Assembly (NCBI RefSeq): GCF_009177065.1
Contig: NZ_WEZF01000017.1
Coordinates: 1 to 64,000 of the forward strand
Length of the DNA stretch: 64,000 nt
Source of the DNA: Tautonia marina
Lineage (GTDB): Bacteria > Planctomycetota > Planctomycetia > Isosphaerales > Isosphaeraceae
Reading direction: 5' to 3'
Below the pieces are notes generated by a model. It ran no database searches. It saw only the letters and a list, made by a program, of their open reading frames with translations, and was not told where the DNA came from. Of this stretch, positions 5,871 through 35,280 are shown in pieces (position 1 is the first letter of the stretch; the number at the start of each line of letters is the position of its first letter). Both the position numbers and the translations under genes were made by a program.

Positions 5871-8753
5871 TCAATCAATGGTGGAGCCCTCCTCACCGAC
5901 CAGGCGGAGGCCCACCGGCAAGGCGTCGCCGAGGGCGACCCCCTGGGCACGGGAGCGGAGTTCGTGGAATTCGCGGACGGGTGCCACGGTTTCCTCGTCA
6001 TCGGCGCCGAGGGAGGAGAGGCGGGCGAGGACCTGGGAGCGGAAGGGGTCGTCGAGGTCTCGGGCGCGGTCGCGGGAGACGCGGGCGATCTGGGAGAGTG
6101 CGAAGATCAGGTCGTCGCGCTCGCGGTCGGAAGAGGGGTCGACGGCGAGGAGGGAGGACGCCCAGCGTTCGGCGACGTCTTTCGAGACGGCGGTGTTGGC
6201 CGGGCCGTAGAGGGGCATCCGGGCGCCGAGGCGGCCGAGGGACCAGAGGGCGGATCGGGGGGCATGGGGGCGGCCGACGACCTTGGCGAGGACGTCGCCG
6301 AGGCCGACCTTGAGGGAGGGTTCGAGCCGTTCGAGGGCGGCGGCGCAGCGCCACATCTCGGCGATCTCGTGGGATTCGGGCTTCGGGCGGTTGAGCTTCT
6401 TGGAGGCGGGGCCGGCCCCCCCCTTGCCGGGGAGGAGGAAGGGGGCGAGGCGTCGGTAGATCTCGTCGTGGTGGGCGCGGTTGAGGCCGGCGGCGACGCG
6501 TCGCCAGAGAACCCACCACTCGACCCAGCATTGCACGTCCTTCGCGTGGGTGACCCCCTGGTGGAAGGTCGGCCAGAGGGCCTTGATGCGGACCGGGTCG
6601 AGCGGGTAGCCGGTGCCGGGGCGGAGGCAGTAGCCGGCGAGGTTCAGCCAACGCTGCTCGTGGCGGGGGGAGCGTTTGCGGTCGGCGGCATGGTCGCGGA
6701 GCGGTTCCCAGAGGGCGCGGAGGGCCGAGGGGGGCCAGTCGTCCCGGGAGAGGTCGAGCACCTCCTCCAGGCGTTTGACGAGGCGGGCGGCGCCGTGCTC
6801 GGCCTGGGGATCGGGGGTCTCGAAGGCGAGGCGGACGGCGGAGACGGCGGCATCGACGAGGGATTGTTCGAGGATGTCCTGTTCCGTGTCGGTGTCGAGG
6901 TCCGCGGCGGGGGCGTTGCCGGAGGCGGCGGGGTTGCGGAACTGGATCTGGAGCTTCCAGCGGCGGTCGTCGGTGCGGGACTGGCACCAGAGTTCGAGGG
7001 TGCCGATCTCGGTGACGAGCGCGGCCAGGCTGACGGGCACGCGCTCGCTCTTGGCCTTGCGGCCGACCCGCATCACGCTGGCGAGCGGGGGGAGGTCGAG
7101 GATCGAATTCGGGTCGCCGGGCACGAGGTCGCCGGGCTTGTCCTGCGGCCGGACGGAGCTGCTGGCCAGGGGGAACAGGACGGGGCGATCGACGAGGAGT
7201 TCGAAGTTGCGGTCCTCGATGTGGAATTCGTCCCCTTCCTGGGCGTCTCGGGGGACGGTGCAGAGCCAGGAAGGGGCAGCCCCGTCGTCCTGCGCCTGGA
7301 GGCCGATGTAGAAGGATCGGGCCGTGCCGCCGCCGATCCGGATGCCGCCGCCGCGACGGACGACCCCGTAATAGGCCGCCCCCTGAGCAACCGCCAGGTC
7401 GAGCGAGTCGTTCGAGAGGACGCGGGGGGCATAGGCCCCGTCCGGCTCGTCCGGGAACCAGGAGGTGACGACCGAGACGATCCGATCGCGGACGACCTGG
7501 GGGGTCAAGGCGCCGCCGTTGAACAGGATGGCGTCGGGCCGGGCGGGGCGGGAGTCGGCGTCCGGCAGGTGGCCTTCGGGCAGGATCGCCTCGCCCCGGT
7601 GGCGACGGAGGAAGGCGGCCAGGTGCTTCGGAATGGCCGGGTCGCTGACGTAAGGGAGGCCGAACTCCTGGAAGCCGGCGCGGGCGGAGCGGTCGGGCTC
7701 GGTCGTGCGATCGACGCTCGGGAAGAAGCCGTCGATGGCGACCGATCGGACCTCGTCGCGCAACAGCTCCGACTTCAGGCTGCCGCCGATGACCCGGGAG
7801 CCTCGGCCGGGGATGGTGACGGGGACGCGGTCGGGGCCTCCGGAGGAGAGGAGCTGCTCCTTGGCCGACCGGCAGGAATAGCGCAAGGCGCTCCATTGCT
7901 CGGCGTCGAGGCGGGGGCCGCCGAGCTTCCCCTCGACGAGGTGGGCCAGGGCCAGGTCGATGTTGTCGCCCCCCAGGAGCAGGTGATCGCCGACCGCCAC
8001 GCGGCGGAAGCCTGGGCCGGTGGGGGTCTCGTTGACGGTGATCAGGCTGAAGTCGGTCGTGCCGCCGCCGATGTCGAAGACGAGGATCAGCTCGCCCGCC
8101 TTCACCTGCTTCTGCCAGCCGGATTGATGGGTGACGATCCAGCAGTAGAAGGCGGCTTGCGGTTCTTCAAGCAAGGTCAGATGGGCCAGGCCGGCTCGCT
8201 TGGCGGCCTCAACGGTCAGCTCTCGGGCGGCCTCGTCGAAGGAGGCGGGAACGGTAAGGACGATCTCCTGCGCTTCGAGCTTTAAGGCGTCGTCGCCGCG
8301 GGCGATCTTGTGGTTCCAGGCGTCTCGGATGTGGGCGAGCAGGGCGGCGGAGGCATCGACGGGAGAGAGGCGGGGGACGTCTTCGGGGCTTCCCCAGGGG
8401 AGGATGGCGGCCTCGCGATCGACCCCGGCGTGGCAGAGCCAGCTCTTGGCGCTGGCGACGAGGCGGGCGGGGACGCGGGCTCCCTGGGATCGGGCGAACT
8501 CGCCGACGATTCGAGAGGCCCCTTCATCCCAGGGCAAGACCGAGGCACCGGGGGGCAACTCAGGCCCGGCAGGGAGGTAGAGGAATGAGGGGAGCATCGG
8601 CCTCGGGCTCGTTTCGCCCGGAGCGACGAGTTGGGGTACCGGGAACGGTTGGATCGCGGCCGAGGGCCGGGCTTTCCCCTTGGTGTCGACAAACGCGACG
8701 GCGCAATTGGTGGTTCCAAGATCAATGCCAACGATGTATCGCGAGCGAGCCAT
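5871..8753 (-). CDS. Large Hsp70/DnaK-like ATPase with long C-terminal extension
   Basis: A protein of 960 residues, much longer than DnaK (about 640). The N-terminal actin-like ATPase domain has the phosphate-1 motif GIDLGTTN at residues 9-16, and phosphate-2 DIGGGTTDF near 225. The substrate-binding domain typical of DnaK is not recognisable. The C-terminal half is an all-alpha-looking extension similar to the DUF3731 region of Hsp70-like bacterial proteins (family assignment from memory, moderate confidence). No signal peptide, so it is cytoplasmic. No dnaJ or grpE gene is adjacent, so it is unlikely to be the housekeeping chaperone. The start MARSRYIVG is set by the conserved ATPase motif. 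Confidence 0.85.
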   Translation of the reverse strand: MARSRYIVGIDLGTTNCAVAFVDTKGKARPSAAIQPFPVPQLVAPGETSPRPMLPSFLYLPAGPELPPGASVLPWDEGASRIVGEFARSQGARVPARLVASAKSWLCHAGVDREAAILPWGSPEDVPRLSPVDASAALLAHIRDAWNHKIARGDDALKLEAQEIVLTVPASFDEAARELTVEAAKRAGLAHLTLLEEPQAAFYCWIVTHQSGWQKQVKAGELILVFDIGGGTTDFSLITVNETPTGPGFRRVAVGDHLLLGGDNIDLALAHLVEGKLGGPRLDAEQWSALRYSCRSAKEQLLSSGGPDRVPVTIPGRGSRVIGGSLKSELLRDEVRSVAIDGFFPSVDRTTEPDRSARAGFQEFGLPYVSDPAIPKHLAAFLRRHRGEAILPEGHLPDADSRPARPDAILFNGGALTPQVVRDRIVSVVTSWFPDEPDGAYAPRVLSNDSLDLAVAQGAAYYGVVRRGGGIRIGGGTARSFYIGLQAQDDGAAPSWLCTVPRDAQEGDEFHIEDRNFELLVDRPVLFPLASSSVRPQDKPGDLVPGDPNSILDLPPLASVMRVGRKAKSERVPVSLAALVTEIGTLELWCQSRTDDRRWKLQIQFRNPAASGNAPAADLDTDTEQDILEQSLVDAAVSAVRLAFETPDPQAEHGAARLVKRLEEVLDLSRDDWPPSALRALWEPLRDHAADRKRSPRHEQRWLNLAGYCLRPGTGYPLDPVRIKALWPTFHQGVTHAKDVQCWVEWWVLWRRVAAGLNRAHHDEIYRRLAPFLLPGKGGAGPASKKLNRPKPESHEIAEMWRCAAALERLEPSLKVGLGDVLAKVVGRPHAPRSALWSLGRLGARMPLYGPANTAVSKDVAERWASSLLAVDPSSDRERDDLIFALSQIARVSRDRARDLDDPFRSQVLARLSSLGADDEETVAPVREFHELRSRAQGVALGDALPVGLRLVGEEGSTID

Positions 8754-9762: not shown

Positions 9763-9845
9763 GACGGAGCCGATCGCTCCCGCTGCCTCAGCCCCAAGGT
9801 CTCTCGACCGAACCCTTGGAAATCCCGGAAGGGAGTTCGGCACCC

Positions 9846-10304
9846 ATGAGCGAGACGGACACCCCCATTCCCCCCAACGAGACCGATCCCCGGTTCCCGT
9901 CGGGCCCCTGGGTCGGCTTTTTCCTGCAAAAGGAACTCCCCGGCCGTCACGGAATGGAACTGCATCTGACGTTTCGCCAGGGGGTTCTCTCCGGAGAAGG
10001 CCGCGACCGGGTCGGCATGTTCCTGGTCCGAGGACGCTACAACCTGGACGACGGCTCTTGCCACTGGGTCAAAACGTACGTCGGCCGCCACGACGTTTTC
10101 TATGCGGGATTCAACGAAGGCAAGGGAATCTGGGGCACCTGGGAAATTGCACCTCGCTGGAAAGGCGGCTTCTACATCTGGCCCGAAGGGATGCCCGATC
10201 CCACGCAGCAGCGTCTCAAGGCCGAGGCCGACGTCCCCGCGCCGAGCAATCCGGTCGGAGTTCCCGAGGAGGAACCGATCCCGGCCGGGGCAGGCATGGA
10301 CTGA
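9846..10304 (+). CDS. Conserved hypothetical protein (152 aa)
   Basis: A cytoplasmic-looking protein without signal peptide or membrane segments. The core has many aromatic and glycine residues (GPWVGFFLQKELPGRHGMELHL, of which at most short parts are diagnostic), ending in an acidic Pro-rich tail. The layout, with repeated Gly-aromatic strands, suggests a small beta-barrel or lipocalin-like fold; this is inference. The ATG at 9846 has AGGGAG upstream at about 9831. It follows the DUF1080 gene on the same strand and converges with the next gene. Function unknown. Confidence 0.7.
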   Translation: MSETDTPIPPNETDPRFPSGPWVGFFLQKELPGRHGMELHLTFRQGVLSGEGRDRVGMFLVRGRYNLDDGSCHWVKTYVGRHDVFYAGFNEGKGIWGTWEIAPRWKGGFYIWPEGMPDPTQQRLKAEADVPAPSNPVGVPEEEPIPAGAGMD

Positions 10305-10336: not shown

Positions 10337-11584
10337 TCAAAGCCCCTGCTTGCGGAGGTTGTAAGGCAAGACCTTCAGGCCGAGCGTCCTTCGAAGCGGA
10401 GTGAGCGCCGATCGCAAGGCGGTGATGGGGGGTTCGGTGGCGTCGTCGTTCTCGATCGTGTAGACGTGGTCTCCTTTGCCGAACGGAAGCGATTCGATCA
10501 ACGCGACGGTTCGGGTGCGTTCCTCAGCCTCGGTGGAGGGATCGAGAGAGCCCGGCCAGACCACCAGGCTGACGGCCAGGTGAGCGGCTCGGGCCTCGGC
10601 GATGAGACGCTTGAGGTCGTCTCGGGGAGTGATAGGCCAGGCGGAGTTCGGATCCGATCCGAAGGCCAGGCCGAAGGTCACGCGACGCAGGCCGAGCGCC
10701 TGATAGCGGGACCAGGCCGAGGCGTCGGGCAAGGGGCCATCGGACGCCCCCAGCACGGCATGAATGCCCTCGCGATGCGGCCGATCGACGGGAAGCTCCA
10801 AGCGCCGAGGAGGGGCGGGAGCCTCGGCCAGGGGGAAGGCTTCGCCAGCGATTCGAAGGTACGATTCGACCAGATCGGGGGAACGACAGAGCACGTCGGG
10901 ACCTGCCAGGAACAGGTTGCGAGAGGGAATGATCCCCTTCCCCAGCAGATGGGTCACATTCCGGCAATGCTCGGCAAAGGCTTCGGGGGACCGCACTTCG
11001 ACCGCCGCTCCTGAGCCTGGAGCGACGGTCGCCTGAAGGACAAGAGCATCCTGGCTGTCGGGGGGAAGAACCGGAAGGGGGCCGTAGGTCCTGGCGAAGG
11101 CTCGGCGGTGATCATCCCAGCGAGCGGCATCCCAGCGGCTGATGCGGGACAGCAGTTCCCGGAGTTGATCGGGAGCAATGGATCGAGCGGGAGCGGGAGG
11201 AGGGATCAGAGTCACGTCTCCCGAGTCGAGCCGGGCGATCAGGCCGAGGGCCATCTGGCGAATCGAGGCGTCGAGCGCGGCGGCTTCGGCCGGGTCGAGG
11301 GTACGACGATTGAGGAGCATCTGATGGTTGACCCTCGGCCGATCGATGGCCTGGGTCGAACCGTCGAGCCGTCGAAGAAGGTGACTGGGATGGACGTAAC
11401 AGCGGAGCCAGCGGCCTTCGAGGTCGAAGTGGTAACTTGGCTCGTTTCCGAAATAGAGTGAAATGGCGCCGTGTTTAACGCCGAAAAAAATCAAATCGCC
11501 GTGATTCGGCTGGAGCCCCACGCGCTCGGGATAAAGGGCACCGGAACGAAGCAGGGCCTGGGCCTCGGTTTCGGCCTGCGACAT
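10337..11584 (-). CDS. Radical-SAM-like protein lacking the iron-sulfur cysteines
   Basis: A protein of 415 residues. The first 125 residues contain a planctomycete-type N-terminal region (GVKHGAISLYFG, YHFDLEGRW). The C-terminal half follows the pattern of COG1032-type radical SAM barrels: a strand LVLQAT (181-186), an RSPEAFAEH helix, then RNLFLAGPDVL (222-232) and GLRRVTFGLAFGSDPN (298-312), which correspond to the usual FLGDGDAL and GLESG segments. Where the CxxxCxxC loop belongs (187-197) the sequence is VAPGSGAAVEV with no cysteine. So the fold is likely kept while the cluster is lost. The ATG at 11584 is preferred (GGGGAG upstream), although the frame is open to 12028. The family call is inference. 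Confidence 0.6.
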   Translation of the reverse strand: MSQAETEAQALLRSGALYPERVGLQPNHGDLIFFGVKHGAISLYFGNEPSYHFDLEGRWLRCYVHPSHLLRRLDGSTQAIDRPRVNHQMLLNRRTLDPAEAAALDASIRQMALGLIARLDSGDVTLIPPPAPARSIAPDQLRELLSRISRWDAARWDDHRRAFARTYGPLPVLPPDSQDALVLQATVAPGSGAAVEVRSPEAFAEHCRNVTHLLGKGIIPSRNLFLAGPDVLCRSPDLVESYLRIAGEAFPLAEAPAPPRRLELPVDRPHREGIHAVLGASDGPLPDASAWSRYQALGLRRVTFGLAFGSDPNSAWPITPRDDLKRLIAEARAAHLAVSLVVWPGSLDPSTEAEERTRTVALIESLPFGKGDHVYTIENDDATEPPITALRSALTPLRRTLGLKVLPYNLRKQGL

Positions 11585-11666: not shown

Positions 11667-11800
11667 GAAAATTCTGCGACGAGCCCGAGGGGTCCGGAAT
11701 TGCTCTGGACTCCGTTCGGGATCGGGCGGCCGGGGTTGTCCACCCCGAGCAAGGATGCGAGCGCCGCCCCGCATCGCAGCGACCCCCAGGGAGGGAACCG

Positions 11801-13681
11801 TTGGACGCTCCCGCAACGACTGCCAAAGCCTCCCAGGACGGTCGAGGACGACCCCCCTGGCGAGAGGCTGTGCTCATCGGTCTGCTGGCCTTGACCCTGA
11901 ACCTCGCCGGCAATGGCCGCGCGAGCCTTTGGGACCGCGACGAGCCGCGGTACGCCGGGTGTACGCGGGAAATGCGCCAAAGTGGCGACCTGATCCACCC
12001 GACGTTCAACGCCGAACCGCGCTACCATAAGCCGGTTCTGATCTACTGGCTGATGCTCGGTGGAACTGCAATCGGGGGAGACAACCCGTTCGGAGCCCGG
12101 CTCGCCTCGTCGCTGGCGGGGACGGCCAGTTGTCTCTTGATCTGGGGGTTCGGTCGTCGATTGTTCGGACCGGCGCAGGGGCGATGGGCGGCCCTGGCGC
12201 TGGCGACCGCGCCGATCATGGTGGCCGAGTCGAAGCTGGCGACGACCGATGCGGCGTTGTTGCTCTGGCTGATCGGCGCTCAGTGGTCGGTCTGGGAACT
12301 CAGTCAGCGATCGAGCCGGTGGTTGACGGCGGCCTTCTGGGCGTGCCTGGCGCTGGCGGTCCTGACGAAGGGCCCGGCGGGTCCGGTGATCCTTGCCTCG
12401 GCCGGGATCATGACCTGGTGGTGGGGAGGGCCGACGGCCGGATATCGACGCTTGCTTGGGCCGATCTGGCCCGATGCAACGGGTCTGGATGAGGGCCTGC
12501 GATTTCGGGAAGCCATCGCCAGGGGGGGCCTGGCCGGGCTGGTGGCGGTGCCTGCCACAATGCTCGCACTGACGGCCCGGGTCACAAGCCGCTGGTTCGT
12601 GAGAAACTGGGGATTCCTCCTATTCCTGGCGATTGCGGCTCCCTGGTATGTCGCCATTGGGATCATCAGTGAGGGCTCCTATTACAGCGTGGCCTGGGGC
12701 TACCACGTCTTGAAGCGGGCGACCGAGGCCATCGAGACTCACGGCGGCTTCCCGGGCTATTACGTGGTCCTCTCCTTACCGTTGCTTTACCCGTGGTCGG
12801 CCTTGCTGCCGGCCGGACTGGTGGGCCTCTGGCGACAGCGGAAACAGATGCCCGCGGCGGGGTTTGTGCTGGGGTGGATCATCGGGCCGCTGCTCCTGCT
12901 CGAAATCATGCGGACGAAGATTATTCATTACTATCTGCCGGCCTATCCGGCCTGTGCTCTGGCGGTGGGGTGGCTGATCGTTGCCCTGTCGCGATCGGAG
13001 TTGAACCTAAGGCGCTGGACGCTCGGCAGCACGTCGCTGGGACTGCTGGCCGGGGTCGGCATCGCCCTGAGTGTCGGCGGACTGGCCGGAGCGGTGGCCC
13101 TGCCGGGGGCATTGCGATGGCCTTGCCTGGCGGCGGCGGTGGTGATCGGCCTGGGCACGGTCTACGCGGTGGATCGCCTGCGCAACGGGGCGACCGAGCG
13201 GGCCGCGGCGAGCCTGGTCGGATCGTGGGCAGCCGTCTTGCTCATCGTCGGCGCCTGGTTCTTGCCGTCGGTCGAGCCGTACCGCTTGCCTCAGAAGGTG
13301 GCGAAGGCGCTCGATCGGATCGAGCGAACCGAGGGGGCGGTGCCGGTCCTGGCGTCGTTCAAACCGCCGGGAATCATCTACTCGATCGGCTATCCGATTC
13401 CCGAGTTGCTCGGCCGGGTGGATGCCGACAACTATGCCCGGCGCACGGGGGCGCTCGTCTCGGCCTTGATGCCCCTGGAACTGGAAATGCTCCGGAATCA
13501 CCCCCGCCTGGAGGTCGAGGAACGCGGCACAGTGGCGGGGTTCAACGTCGAGCGGTTCCGGAACGAGGAGCTGAAGGTGGTAGTCATCCGGCCGAAGCCG
13601 GGGACGACCTCACCCGACGGAGGCCCGGTGCCGACCGTCGCCCGGGGGCGAGAGACCCTGGAGTCGCTCCGCATAAAGTGA
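11801..13681 (+). CDS. ArnT/PMT-like membrane glycosyltransferase (GT39/83 type)
   Basis: A protein of 626 residues with about 10-12 hydrophobic segments. After the first membrane helix comes LWDRDEPRYAGCTREM, the Asp-Glu first-loop motif of polyprenyl-phosphate-sugar-dependent transferases (ArnT and mannosyltransferase families), and later TFNAEPRYHKPVLIYW. It probably moves a sugar from a lipid carrier to an acceptor on the outer face of the cytoplasmic membrane. No ATG suits the start. TTG at 11801 is chosen because AGGGAGGG lies just upstream; GTG at 11870 is an alternative. The 3' end overlaps the convergent GT4 gene by 72 bases. Confidence 0.85.
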   Translation: MDAPATTAKASQDGRGRPPWREAVLIGLLALTLNLAGNGRASLWDRDEPRYAGCTREMRQSGDLIHPTFNAEPRYHKPVLIYWLMLGGTAIGGDNPFGARLASSLAGTASCLLIWGFGRRLFGPAQGRWAALALATAPIMVAESKLATTDAALLLWLIGAQWSVWELSQRSSRWLTAAFWACLALAVLTKGPAGPVILASAGIMTWWWGGPTAGYRRLLGPIWPDATGLDEGLRFREAIARGGLAGLVAVPATMLALTARVTSRWFVRNWGFLLFLAIAAPWYVAIGIISEGSYYSVAWGYHVLKRATEAIETHGGFPGYYVVLSLPLLYPWSALLPAGLVGLWRQRKQMPAAGFVLGWIIGPLLLLEIMRTKIIHYYLPAYPACALAVGWLIVALSRSELNLRRWTLGSTSLGLLAGVGIALSVGGLAGAVALPGALRWPCLAAAVVIGLGTVYAVDRLRNGATERAAASLVGSWAAVLLIVGAWFLPSVEPYRLPQKVAKALDRIERTEGAVPVLASFKPPGIIYSIGYPIPELLGRVDADNYARRTGALVSALMPLELEMLRNHPRLEVEERGTVAGFNVERFRNEELKVVVIRPKPGTTSPDGGPVPTVARGRETLESLRIK

Positions 13682-14806
13682 TCGGAGCTGATCGACCATC
13701 GTTTCCTTTCGAAACTGATCGGCGAACCGGCGACGGCCCTCACGCCCGAGGGCTGCTCGCCGGTCGGCGTTTCCGGCCAGTTCGAGGATTGCCGAGGCGA
13801 GCCGAGCGCGGTCGAGAAACGGGACGAGAATCCCCGTTTCCGGAATCACGACCTCCCTTGCCCCGTCCACGTCGTAGCTGATCGCCGGTCGCCCCACGAT
13901 CAGGCCTTGCGGCAGGACTCTCGCCAACCCTTCCCGGTAGCTCGGGTGCAGGACGGCATCGCAGGCGTTGAGCAACTCCGGGATGCGATCGGGCGGAACA
14001 AGGCCGGTGAAGTGGATCGCGTGGCGGATGCCGAGCCGGTCGGCCTCGGCTTCGAGCCGGTCGCGGAGGATTCCGCTGCCGATCCAGACGAATCGGACGT
14101 TCGGATTCTGCCGAAGGACCTGAGGGGCGATGTCGAGAATATCCTCGTGCCCCTTGCGCTCGAACAATCGGGCGACGGTGGCGAAGGCGACCTCGTGATC
14201 GGCCAGGCCAAGCTCGCGGCGAACGGCCTCGCGGGGTCTGGGCGGATTGAGGAACGGCTCGACCTCCATGCCGCTGTAGACCGTCTCGAATTGCTCAGGC
14301 ACCCCGACCCCGGCGGCGAGGGCCTGTTCGGTCATGGCGTCGCAAACGCTGACAATCGCGTGGCACCGCTTTGCCGCCCAGCGCTCCAGGCCGACGTAAA
14401 GCCGATTGCGCCAGGGTTTCTCCGACGGCCCGAAGGGCAAGCCGTGGATCGTGTGCACGACGAGCGGCACCTTCTCGTCCCAGGCGGCGGCGCGGCCGAC
14501 GATCCCGGCCTTCGAGCTATGGGTGTGGACGACCTCGGGATTGAGCCTTCGAATGGCCTGGCGGAGCTTCTGATAGGCTTTCCAGTCGGTTCCGGGTCGG
14601 ATGGCGCGGACCAACTCCGGCATCAGCTCGACCTTCAGCCCCTGACGCTCGGCGCGGTCGAACAGGTCCCCCTCGGGGCCTTCGGCGGGGCCGGTAATGA
14701 GGGTCACGTCATCGCCGAAGCGATGGTGCAACCCCTCGACGGTCAAGAGGGTGTTCTCCTGAGCGCCTCCGAGAATCAATCGCGTGATGACGTGAACAAT
14801 GCGCAT
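13610..14806 (-). CDS. Family 4 glycosyltransferase (GT-B fold)
   Basis: A 398-residue cytoplasmic enzyme. The N-terminal domain opens with MRIVHVITRLILGGAQENT (the GGAE-like donor/acceptor loop) and has VVHTHSSKAGIVGR. The C-terminal domain has ATVARLFERKGHEDIL and the EX7E-type segment HPSYREGLARVLPQGLIVGRP. It transfers a nucleotide-activated sugar; the substrate is unknown. It starts 12 bases after truA and is the last gene of the minus-strand run that begins at asd. Its 3' end overlaps the convergent ArnT-like gene by 72 bases, which is unusually long for unrelated convergent genes. Confidence 0.9.
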   Translation of the reverse strand: MRIVHVITRLILGGAQENTLLTVEGLHHRFGDDVTLITGPAEGPEGDLFDRAERQGLKVELMPELVRAIRPGTDWKAYQKLRQAIRRLNPEVVHTHSSKAGIVGRAAAWDEKVPLVVHTIHGLPFGPSEKPWRNRLYVGLERWAAKRCHAIVSVCDAMTEQALAAGVGVPEQFETVYSGMEVEPFLNPPRPREAVRRELGLADHEVAFATVARLFERKGHEDILDIAPQVLRQNPNVRFVWIGSGILRDRLEAEADRLGIRHAIHFTGLVPPDRIPELLNACDAVLHPSYREGLARVLPQGLIVGRPAISYDVDGAREVVIPETGILVPFLDRARLASAILELAGNADRRAALGREGRRRFADQFRKETMVDQLRSLYAERLQGLSPPGDGRHRASVG

Positions 14807-14818
14807 GGAGCCGAGGCG

Positions 14819-15589
14819 TCAGGGCCTCTCCTCGGTCGAAGGGGGGCGTTCGCCCTCGTAACGGACGTAGAGCAGGAACAGGCCCTGCGGCGGAGCGGTC
14901 GGTCCGGCATCGCGGCGGGCCTGGGCGGCGAGGGCGTCGGCGGCGAAGGTTTCTGCGCGTCGGCCGCTGCCGATCAGGACGAGCGTGCCGGTGATCGCCC
15001 GGACCATATTGTACAGGAAGCCGTCGGCCTCGACCTCGACATGCACCAGGTGATCGTGACGCGAGACGGCAATGTCGAAGATGGTGCGGATGCTCGTCTG
15101 GCGGTTCGGCCACTCGGTCTCGAAGCTGCGGAAGTCGTGCGTCCCCTTCAGCGCCTGGGCGGCCCGGTGCATCCGAGGGACATCGAGCGGGTAGCCGACG
15201 TGCCAGCAATAGTGCCGCTGGAACGGGTCGGGGATCCGGGAATTGTCGATCACGTAGCGATAGCGTTTGCTCGTCGCGCTGAGGGTGGCGTGGAAGTCGA
15301 GCGGGACATCCTCGGCTTCGAGGATCCGGATCGATCGCGGGAGCTTGGCATTGATGGCGCGGACGAGCACCTCTGGGGGCAAGGTCGTCTCGGATTCGAA
15401 CGTCGCCACCTGCCCGATCGCGTGCACCCCGGCATCGGTTCGGCCGCTGGCGAGGGTCGTCGGGCGATCACCGAGGATCTGCTCAATCGCTGATTCGAGT
15501 TCCCCCTGAACCGTCGGCCGCCCCGGCTGGCGCTGCCAGCCGTGGTATCCGGCACCGTCATAGCAGAGGGTGAGCTTGATGTTCCGCAT
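14819..15589 (-). CDS. truA: tRNA pseudouridine synthase A
   Basis: A 256-residue enzyme that makes pseudouridine at positions 38-40 of tRNA anticodon stems. It starts MRNIKLTLCYDGAGYHGWQRQ and carries the catalytic motif GRTDAGVHA (Asp nucleophile). FDIAVSRHDHLVHVEVEADGFLYNMVR is the usual C-terminal core. The ATG at 15589 is fixed by the family start; no strong ribosome site precedes it. The first 25 codons are repeated 873 bases upstream (16388-16462) with one change (Asn3 to Lys). The parDE pair lies between the two copies. Transcription is now likely to depend on read-through from parDE or on weak signals in the repeat (inference). Confidence 0.95.
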   Translation of the reverse strand: MRNIKLTLCYDGAGYHGWQRQPGRPTVQGELESAIEQILGDRPTTLASGRTDAGVHAIGQVATFESETTLPPEVLVRAINAKLPRSIRILEAEDVPLDFHATLSATSKRYRYVIDNSRIPDPFQRHYCWHVGYPLDVPRMHRAAQALKGTHDFRSFETEWPNRQTSIRTIFDIAVSRHDHLVHVEVEADGFLYNMVRAITGTLVLIGSGRRAETFAADALAAQARRDAGPTAPPQGLFLLYVRYEGERPPSTEERP

Positions 15590-15635
15590 CGTCACGGCTG
15601 GGGGAAGGTGCGCGAATGGTCGCCGCAGAATGGTT
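15516..15635. repeat. Direct repeat copy A flanking the parDE cassette
   Basis: These 120 bases match 16389-16508 at a constant offset of 873 with seven mismatches. Only one mismatch falls in the first 93 bases, which hold the truA start. The outer part (15592-15635) preserves a decayed 3' end of the gene now located at 16465-16959: in the right frame it still reads DHSRTFPQP and stop, against DHSHAFPQP and stop in the intact gene. This shows the repeat spans an old gene junction. Confidence 0.9.
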
Positions 15636-15681
15636 GTCAATCTACTGGAACAAGGTGGTTCACCAACTCGTCCCTTCCTGA

Positions 15682-16008
15682 TCACTCATGCTCATCTTCC
15701 AAAATCGCGCGAATATCTCGTGCCGCGTGCAGGATGCGGATGACCTCAATACCGCCCTCGATGGTCAGGTAGAAGATGAGGTAGTTGCGGAAGCGGTTCA
15801 CCCGGCTGCAGCGGAGCCCGGCAAGGCGCGGGTTCTCAACCTCGTAAGGGGTTCCGATGCCGGGCGAGGCGGCCAGAGCGGCGAACGTGGCTTCGGCGGC
15901 CATGCGGAACCGATAGGCAGCATCGGGATTCCGTTCCCCAATGTAAGCGTAACAGGCAGCCAGGTCGAAGCGAGCGACAGGCCGCTTGAGGACGATCCCC
16001 TCGTTCAT
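15682..16008 (-). CDS. parE: ParE/RelE-family toxin
   Basis: A 108-residue protein with the ParE layout: N-terminal two-helix hairpin (PVARFDLAACYAYIGERNPDAAYRF), then a small beta-sheet with GTPYEVENPRLAGLRCSRVNRFRNYLIFY and the C-terminal strand IEVIRILHAARD. ParE toxins poison DNA gyrase, while RelE relatives cut mRNA on the ribosome; which applies here is not visible. The start ATG at 16008 overlaps the parD stop by 4 bases (ATGA), so expression is translationally coupled. The stop is 93 bases before the truA start. Confidence 0.9.
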   Translation of the reverse strand: MNEGIVLKRPVARFDLAACYAYIGERNPDAAYRFRMAAEATFAALAASPGIGTPYEVENPRLAGLRCSRVNRFRNYLIFYLTIEGGIEVIRILHAARDIRAILEDEHE

Positions 16009-34482: not shown

Positions 34483-35280
34483 TTACTGCGTTCTGACACG
34501 AGGTTGCCGATCGAACGATCGAGGTCGGTGCGGGTGAGACGCGTCTCGGCGTGGTGCGGCCGCACGCCGCGACGCGGTGAGACGATCGAGCACGAAAATC
34601 AGGTCGTCGGGATCACACGGGAGATCAAGGCAGGCGATCGCTCCGCTGGCTCGGGCCTTGGCGACCGTCTCCCGATCGGCCAGGCCGAGCAGGGCGATCA
34701 CCCCGCGCCGCTGCGCGGCCGTTGCCAGCCGGGTCGACCAGTCGGGATCGAGCACGGGAACGTCCCAGACGACCCAGGGTTCCGGCCCGAGCAGGGGATT
34801 GTCCCGCGCGCGTCTCGGGGCGTAACCGGCCTCGCGGAGCGTGTCCTCGACCATGCGGCCCAGTTCCCAATGACCGCAGGCCAGGGCGATCGGGCGGGCT
34901 CGGGGCGGCACGCTCCGGGGCGGCCCCGGCTGCCCGACGTGTCGGGCGATCGTCTCGCTCGCGGTCGCCTCGGGCAAGACCACATCGACCAGCCCCGACC
35001 AGGCCATGATCTGGTGATACCTGGCGTGGGGGCCGACCACGAGGATCACCCGAGGCGCCCGATCGGAGTCCCGGAGCCGTCGCAGGCGATCGGCCTCGGT
35101 CACCGAGAGGGTTCCTCGATGGAGCACCAGGACCGAGGGGGTCGGCCCCGCCGCCCCGTCCTCGGGCAGCTCCGCCCCGAGGATCCGGGGGGACAGGCCC
35201 CGGATCGCCTCGTGGAGGGCCGCGACCCACGGGTCGGTCAGGTCGCCGGAGAAGGCCAGATCGATCCGATTCCCGATCAC
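34483..35280 (-). CDS. Protein with two degenerate receiver-like domains
   Basis: A 265-residue soluble protein starting at GTG 35280 with a GGGGGTGG tract just upstream. It has two consecutive alpha/beta units of about 115 residues that follow the receiver pattern. In unit 1 the third strand reads SVLVLHRGTLS, lacking the phospho-acceptor Asp. In unit 2 it reads WVVWDVPVLD, with an Asp in place, but the usual paired acidic residues of strand 1 are absent (ALACGHWELG), and the final Lys-Pro is LP. It ends in an Arg/His-rich tail. The call is by pattern only; partner unknown. Divergent from the secreted protein at 35527. Confidence 0.55.
   Translation of the reverse strand: MIGNRIDLAFSGDLTDPWVAALHEAIRGLSPRILGAELPEDGAAGPTPSVLVLHRGTLSVTEADRLRRLRDSDRAPRVILVVGPHARYHQIMAWSGLVDVVLPEATASETIARHVGQPGPPRSVPPRARPIALACGHWELGRMVEDTLREAGYAPRRARDNPLLGPEPWVVWDVPVLDPDWSTRLATAAQRRGVIALLGLADRETVAKARASGAIACLDLPCDPDDLIFVLDRLTASRRAAAPRRDASHPHRPRSFDRQPRVRTQ

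Follow-up and report, generated by a model that had tools for sequence, protein, structure and literature searches.

Pseudoenzymes are well known in folds other than that of the radical SAM proteins, and in the latter three cluster cysteines are needed for catalysis. When we searched the open-licence PMC literature by titles and the starts of abstracts, no radical SAM pseudoenzyme or cysteine-less radical SAM domain was found to be described, and no paper on radical SAM proteins in Isosphaeraceae came up. Among the described systems, a parallel is offered by the HemW-type heme chaperones, radical SAM relatives whose role as a carrier is different from substrate radical chemistry. According to the discussion in a paper on HemW, the cluster is dispensable for heme binding by the E. 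coli protein; HemW nevertheless keeps its [4Fe-4S] cluster, cleaves SAM weakly and requires the cluster for heme transfer (PMC10320005). The 415-aa protein from Tautonia marina that we describe here differs from HemW, as portrayed there, in having no cluster cysteines at all. It shares a predicted partial barrel with the radical SAM superfamily (PF04055), but it is set apart from this superfamily both by the missing cysteines and by the lack of any PF04055 match at E≤10. What would be new here is thus a pseudoenzyme of the radical SAM fold, since pseudoenzymes as such are already known.

The gene lies in a window of 64,000 nt, by which we mean the whole stretch of T. marina DNA that was analysed. 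A single minus-strand frame accounts for it, running from 11584 to 10340 with its stop codon at 10339-10337, and in the alignment its ATG is in register with the starts of the homologues (Table 1). The first-pass annotation, made from the letters alone, had described a radical SAM-type barrel that follows the COG1032 pattern but is without the CxxxCxxC motif, and had singled out the strings LVLQAT, VAPGSGAAVEV, RSPEAF, FLAGPD and GLAFGSD, each of which is indeed present in the translation. The gene is single-copy in the T. marina genome as far as found. A close cysteine-bearing paralogue, which the same annotation had suggested looking for, was not found: with the Isosphaeraceae profile at E≤10 this gene alone was recovered from a genome that has 20 other radical SAM domains.

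Table 1. Parts of the gene and its neighbours in the T. marina window.
Feature	Position	Strand	Details
Putative Cys-less radical SAM-type pseudoenzyme, coding sequence	10337..11584	minus	415 aa + stop
N-terminal domain, residues 1-150 (predicted beta-meander with helices)	11135..11584	minus	model pLDDT 95.8
Linker, residues 151-172	11069..11134	minus	alignments and model; PP turn (174-175) comes next
C-terminal radical SAM-type partial barrel (predicted), residues 173-415	10340..11068	minus	structure and profile matches
Loop VAPGSGAAVEV at the CX3CX2C cluster-loop site, residues 187-197	10994..11026	minus	combined alignment, column table
GLAFGSD, eroded SAM-site motif, residues 305-311	10652..10672	minus	alignment; GVESGD or near it in most Isosphaeraceae members
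PMT_2-type glycosyltransferase, divergent conserved neighbour	11711..13681 (open frame as searched)	plus	PF13231, 60.9 bits
Glycosyltransferase with group 1 and family 4 domains	13610..14806	minus	close by in 22/28 relatives' loci
tRNA pseudouridine synthase frame	14822..15685	minus	PF01416; close by in 22/28 relatives' loci

The kinship with radical SAM proteins becomes apparent only at the level of the family. Searched alone, the 415-aa protein gave no relevant Pfam match (there was one chance-level DUF, E 0.12) and no relevant match in NCBIfam or among PDB sequences, so that the relation proposed in the first-pass annotation was beyond the reach of these single-sequence searches. Likewise, a scan of genome contigs with this one sequence returned no relative, whereas an alignment-based scan did yield relatives. 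In the homologues the proposal was borne out: 22 of the 38 aligned Isosphaeraceae members match PF04055 at E≤0.01, and one of the ten members scanned singly passes its curated cut-off, with 35 bits. A profile of all 38 members compared with a profile of 11 ordinary radical SAM proteins, which are without the N-domain, gave E 5e-22 and a score of 164.5 (20 column-shuffled controls of this 38-member profile scored 11.5 to 22.6), and the match, in which the motifs line up with each other, spans profile positions 168-378. Even a profile built from the four Tautonia sequences only reached E 8e-8 (score 62.3) against the same 11 proteins. TIGR04479, the model of PhpK-type radical SAM methyltransferases, is matched at E≤0.1, and at best with E 1.6e-5, by 14 of 27 members but not by the 415-aa protein. 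Against PDB sequences the top five rows for the Isosphaeraceae profile, with E from 0.0036 to 0.022, were NocN, an enzyme of the apramycin pathway and Elp3 (three entries), all of them radical SAM proteins.

The predicted structure points in the same direction. An AlphaFold2 model made from 27 sequences has a mean pLDDT of 90.2 and a pTM of 0.89, and it contains the partial TIM barrel of radical SAM type that had been expected, with radical SAM enzymes as its best solved matches. In Foldseek the full model found viperin first (E 1.3e-5); of the 18 chains at E≤0.001, ten are radical SAM enzymes, with viperin accounting for four, and eight are tagatose-bisphosphate aldolases, with TM-scores that are low throughout, none exceeding 0.38 by model length among the 50 rows shown. 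With VIA-align 2, radical SAM enzymes, classed as such from their titles or known identity, fill the top 42 of 50 rows; their Z runs from 12.5 to 9.9, and most of these matches cover residues 173-415. Viperin leads with Z 12.5 and an rmsd of 3.2 over 184 residues, and AroD, a barrel of non-radical type, comes next after these 42 with Z 9.8. Besides viperin, the solved enzymes matched by the predicted barrel include Elp3, biotin synthase and NifB. The N-domain, modelled alone with a pLDDT of 95.8, is a strand meander with helices, and this model had no clear match among solved folds (best E 0.096 in Foldseek, best Z 5.2 in VIA-align 2).

Across the family Isosphaeraceae the cluster cysteines are absent wherever the loop region could be read. 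We searched 148 related genomes, 45 of them from Isosphaeraceae and 103 from other members of the same class; no more than 12 candidates were scored in each genome, which makes all counts lower bounds. The gene was found in 42 of the 45 Isosphaeraceae genomes, T. marina included, and in all 26 that reach 90% completeness with no more than 5% contamination; completeness is 68, 77 and 89% in the three genomes where it was not found. Four of the 42 genomes (G004, G034, G039 and G041) hold contig-end fragments only, and in G041 the contig stops short of the loop region, which places it outside the cysteine count. In every one of the 41 genomes with a readable loop region, 38 represented in the main alignment and three by fragments, the cluster cysteines are missing; two members whose loop is deleted or nearly so (L028 and L034) are counted here as lacking them. 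The CxxxCxxC motif is thus found in none of the 38 aligned members, and the cysteine-less form, noticed at first in a single sequence, is kept throughout the family. A sequencing error behind the missing cysteines is ruled out because 41 genomes agree.

Outside the family the opposite holds, as CX3CX2C is present in all 27 proteins compared: the 16 barrel-bearing relatives that, among those read, come closest to the family, and the 11 ordinary radical SAM proteins. These outside proteins came from a phylum-wide search of 392 genomes, of which the best 30 loci were used, and from the scan of genome contigs. The 30 loci comprised two from Isosphaeraceae, 15 similar ones (L102 to L116), 11 ordinary radical SAM proteins, one stand-alone N-domain (L122) and one partial sequence, L117, which begins past the loop and was excluded from the cysteine count; a miss in this search is weak evidence, since at most four candidates per genome were scored. 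The 16 relatives consist of L079, from a myxobacterial (Archangium) MAG, and L102 to L116, from other Planctomycetota lineages. They resemble the Isosphaeraceae protein in their two-part build, with one domain ahead of a radical SAM barrel. Their barrel is near the Isosphaeraceae type and alignable with it, sharing the PP turn, the FLG/FLAG strand and the GVESGD-type and GAGG-type motifs. They differ in that CX3CX2C is intact and in that the barrel is their conserved half. The contrast at the loop may be illustrated by one aligned pair, QATEGCAYNSCTFCNLYRGSRY in L102 and QATLGHADGRTFGLAKSENF in L024. We found neither a family name nor a function for these cysteine-bearing relatives. In a barrel tree, which like the identity counts given below omits the truncated or eroded L022 and L034 (the cysteine count keeps both), the 36 cysteine-less rows stand together on one side of a branch with 100/100 support. 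As far as sequences can tell, this fits a single loss of the cysteines at the base of Isosphaeraceae.

Conservation within the protein is inverted in comparison to the cysteine-bearing relatives. The N-domain, described from one sequence as well kept, proved to be the better conserved half in 489 of 496 pairs among 32 Isosphaeraceae members outside Tautonia and in all six Tautonia pairs, as opposed to none of 120 pairs within the cysteine-bearing set. When barrel identity is matched (0.30 to 0.45), the mean N-domain identity is 0.52 in Isosphaeraceae (346 pairs) versus 0.22 in the cysteine-bearing proteins (100 pairs). Similarly, among the 38 members 32 N-domain columns and 13 barrel columns are conserved at ≥90%, versus 3 and 30, respectively, among the cysteine-bearing relatives. 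In the 38-member alignment nine N-domain residues are invariant: H52, D54, R58, W59, H68, D74, R82, R84 and R93. The direction of the inversion agrees with function having moved away from the barrel and towards the N-domain. The inversion may be smaller than these figures suggest, and for some of the relatives a common N-domain can only be presumed, because the N-domain alignment is weak: the stretch preceding the barrel aligns with the N-domain clearly in only half of them, the Isosphaeraceae profile reaching its beta part in just 8 of 16, and their aligned N-domain identity to the 415-aa protein is 0.16 to 0.29. Nevertheless, L079 and L102 share a recognizable N-domain motif, HFDLEGRW and HFDLEGRL, respectively.

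Both domains are under purifying selection. The first-pass annotation had taken the good state of the N-domain to imply selection, and this view stands: in simple Nei-Gojobori estimates for seven pairs, the 14 domain comparisons gave dN/dS of 0.06 to 0.53, all below 1, with 0.19 to 0.46 for the barrel and, in the pair containing the 415-aa protein, 0.16 for the N-domain and 0.20 for the barrel. Moreover, at least 90% of the 38 members retain K404, Y408 and K412, the last conserved residues of the barrel.

The N-domain also exists on its own. In at least 35 of the 103 same-class genomes outside Isosphaeraceae, matches were confined to the N-part (the first ≤157 residues), and the open frames concerned are 165 to 338 aa long. 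The 11 such proteins that we read share the YFG.DP..HF region with the Isosphaeraceae protein and differ from it in having no barrel. In an N-domain tree, whose bootstrap has not settled, these 11 group in a single clade (100/99) next to Isosphaeraceae, the forks around it being less well supported; L079 and L102 stand apart from the other 14 cysteine-bearing relatives on long branches, with L079 beside Isosphaeraceae at modest support (83/75). Judged from these sequences, there seem to be two outcomes in this class, one in which the barrel was retained without its cluster and one in which it is gone.

Taken together, we consider it probable, at roughly 0.75, that the protein is a radical SAM pseudoenzyme whose barrel has been kept as a scaffold or ligand-binding part for the N-domain, as far as sequences and a predicted structure allow us to judge. 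Its apparent ancestry from an enzyme, the loss of catalytic residues throughout a conserved clade and the purifying selection on the protein are what one would expect of a pseudoenzyme. From the chemistry of radical SAM enzymes it would follow that, without the three ligands, neither the catalytic [4Fe-4S] cluster nor reductive cleavage of SAM is possible; the protein would thus make no radical because these ligands are missing. The barrel would then serve as a scaffold and, in most members, perhaps still as a pocket in which SAM, or a ligand like it, is bound without a cluster. It might present the N-domain to a partner, in which case the invariant His, Arg, Asp and Trp residues would form the functional surface.

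One might argue instead that selection acts on the N-domain alone and that the barrel, carried along as a passenger, is slowly decaying, with a stand-alone N-domain as the end point. This is unlikely in our view; because it overlaps in part with the pseudoenzyme reading, the likelihoods we assign sum to more than one. The many genomes with N-domain-only matches, their position as sister clade in the N-domain tree and the inverted conservation all agree with it, as do the barrel erosion of L034 (genome G022), the loop loss of L028 and the copy in G043, which stops about 38 residues early in a genome that is incomplete and fragmented. A mere passenger is, however, difficult to reconcile with the low dN/dS of the barrel in all seven pairs, with its 13 highly conserved columns and confidently predicted fold, and with the retention of K404, Y408 and K412 at its very end.

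The state of the SAM site bears on another alternative, which we regard as quite unlikely, namely that the protein is an active enzyme of unusual chemistry, with a barrel that binds SAM or a small molecule for non-radical catalysis or that holds a cluster by other ligands. The GVESGD- and GAGG-type motifs presumably line the SAM pocket, and most members outside Tautonia retain them: the E of GVESGD is found in 28 of 34 members there versus 1 of 4 in Tautonia, the second G of GAGG in 33 of 34 versus none of 4, and a barrel His in 31 of 34 versus none of 4. The retained motifs make a cluster-free SAM-type pocket plausible in most members, and they also count in favour of unusual catalysis. So do two further observations: the first-cysteine column holds His in 14 and Asp in 8 of the 34 members outside Tautonia (this assignment depends on the alignment), and two semi-conserved cysteines occur elsewhere, in 32 and 23 of the 38 members. 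An unusual cluster may be held via other residues or a partner. Yet no old ligand column is conserved as a different ligand, and among the conserved Cys/His columns we found no substitute triad, as only two Cys columns reach 8 of 38 members and the 415-aa protein has Cys in neither, both semi-conserved cysteines being missing from it. Further, in the 415-aa protein both the GVESGD-type strand and the glycine-rich strand are eroded and the cluster loop is shortened by about 10 residues relative to most Isosphaeraceae; in L028 the loop is deleted, and the barrel is the less conserved half of the protein. Returning to the pseudoenzyme, in Tautonia the barrel would most likely be a pure scaffold, because the SAM motifs are eroded there too. 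Separately, we note that L034 has a barrel eroded beyond that of the other members, the profile matching only positions 4-251 of 440.

The genomic neighbourhood is well conserved within the family. A PMT_2-type gene adjoins the gene, in divergent orientation, in 27 of 28 Isosphaeraceae loci, the only exception being L063, whose contig begins at the gene itself. In L062 the contig begins close to or inside the PMT gene, in L073, L075, L076 and L077 the PMT gene alone is visible of the flanking genes, and in L067 the truA-type gene lies on the opposite side. Such a neighbourhood may reflect block synteny or a functional tie. At E≤1e-5 no PMT, GT4 or truA-type neighbour was found in 17 outside loci (10 stand-alone and 7 cysteine-bearing) or in L079; the stand-alone N-domain proteins thus differ from the Isosphaeraceae protein also in this respect, with 0 of 10 having any of these neighbours. 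Nor did a widely shared neighbour of their own emerge for the 17 outside loci among the 14 largest groups: leaving the query proteins aside, none of these was shared by more than three loci. There are six small groups of frames that each occur in three stand-alone loci, some of them being opposite strands of the same place. In L132, L135 and L138 (3 of the 10 stand-alone loci) a similar opposite-strand frame starts beside the stand-alone N-domain gene, and in L131, L134 and L137 a similar frame lies upstream of it on the same strand.

It is tempting to connect the two sides of this locus by supposing that the N-domain is the active or binding centre and that the barrel is a cluster-free SAM sensor controlling it, with the PMT-type glycosyltransferase; in Tautonia the sensor would have been lost and the scaffold left. 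We put this forward as a speculation with a small chance of being right.

Some further observations on the surroundings of the gene may be recorded. The gene is accompanied by a DnaK-related protein (5871-8753, minus strand), in which HSP70 and DUF3731 domains are found, and by a small convergent protein (9801-10304, plus strand) that has no Pfam match at E≤0.01. Across the 29 loci L051 to L079, each of the two recurs near the gene only in L051, from Tautonia sociabilis. Three loci titled Candidatus Kuenenia stuttgartiensis (L073, L075 and L076) carry the gene together with its PMT neighbour, and these titles look mislabelled. At Rfam thresholds no RNA feature was found near the gene or across the window. 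ARAGORN called an unusually long tRNA-Cys (gca) of 99 bases at 34871-34969 on the plus strand, where Rfam gives no tRNA at threshold; this may be a spurious prediction or an atypical tRNA.

Finally, that the barrel is of some other TIM type, for instance that of an aldolase, with no kinship to radical SAM proteins, is extremely improbable: the tagatose-bisphosphate aldolases among the Foldseek matches (8 of 18, all one enzyme type), the score of AroD and the failure of the 415-aa protein alone to match any radical SAM model are outweighed by the in-register profile match at E 5e-22, by the PF04055 matches of the homologues and by relatives with an intact CX3CX2C that align across the whole barrel.

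A practical consequence is one of caution, as weak matches to family profiles may pass such proteins off as radical SAM enzymes. If our reading is right, this would be a radical SAM pseudoenzyme fixed in one bacterial family, existing alongside cysteine-bearing relatives on one hand and stand-alone N-domains on the other. The loss appears to be graded, with the cysteines gone throughout Isosphaeraceae and the SAM motifs eroded as well in Tautonia. These proteins would therefore constitute a natural series for probing what the radical SAM barrel is able to do without its cluster.
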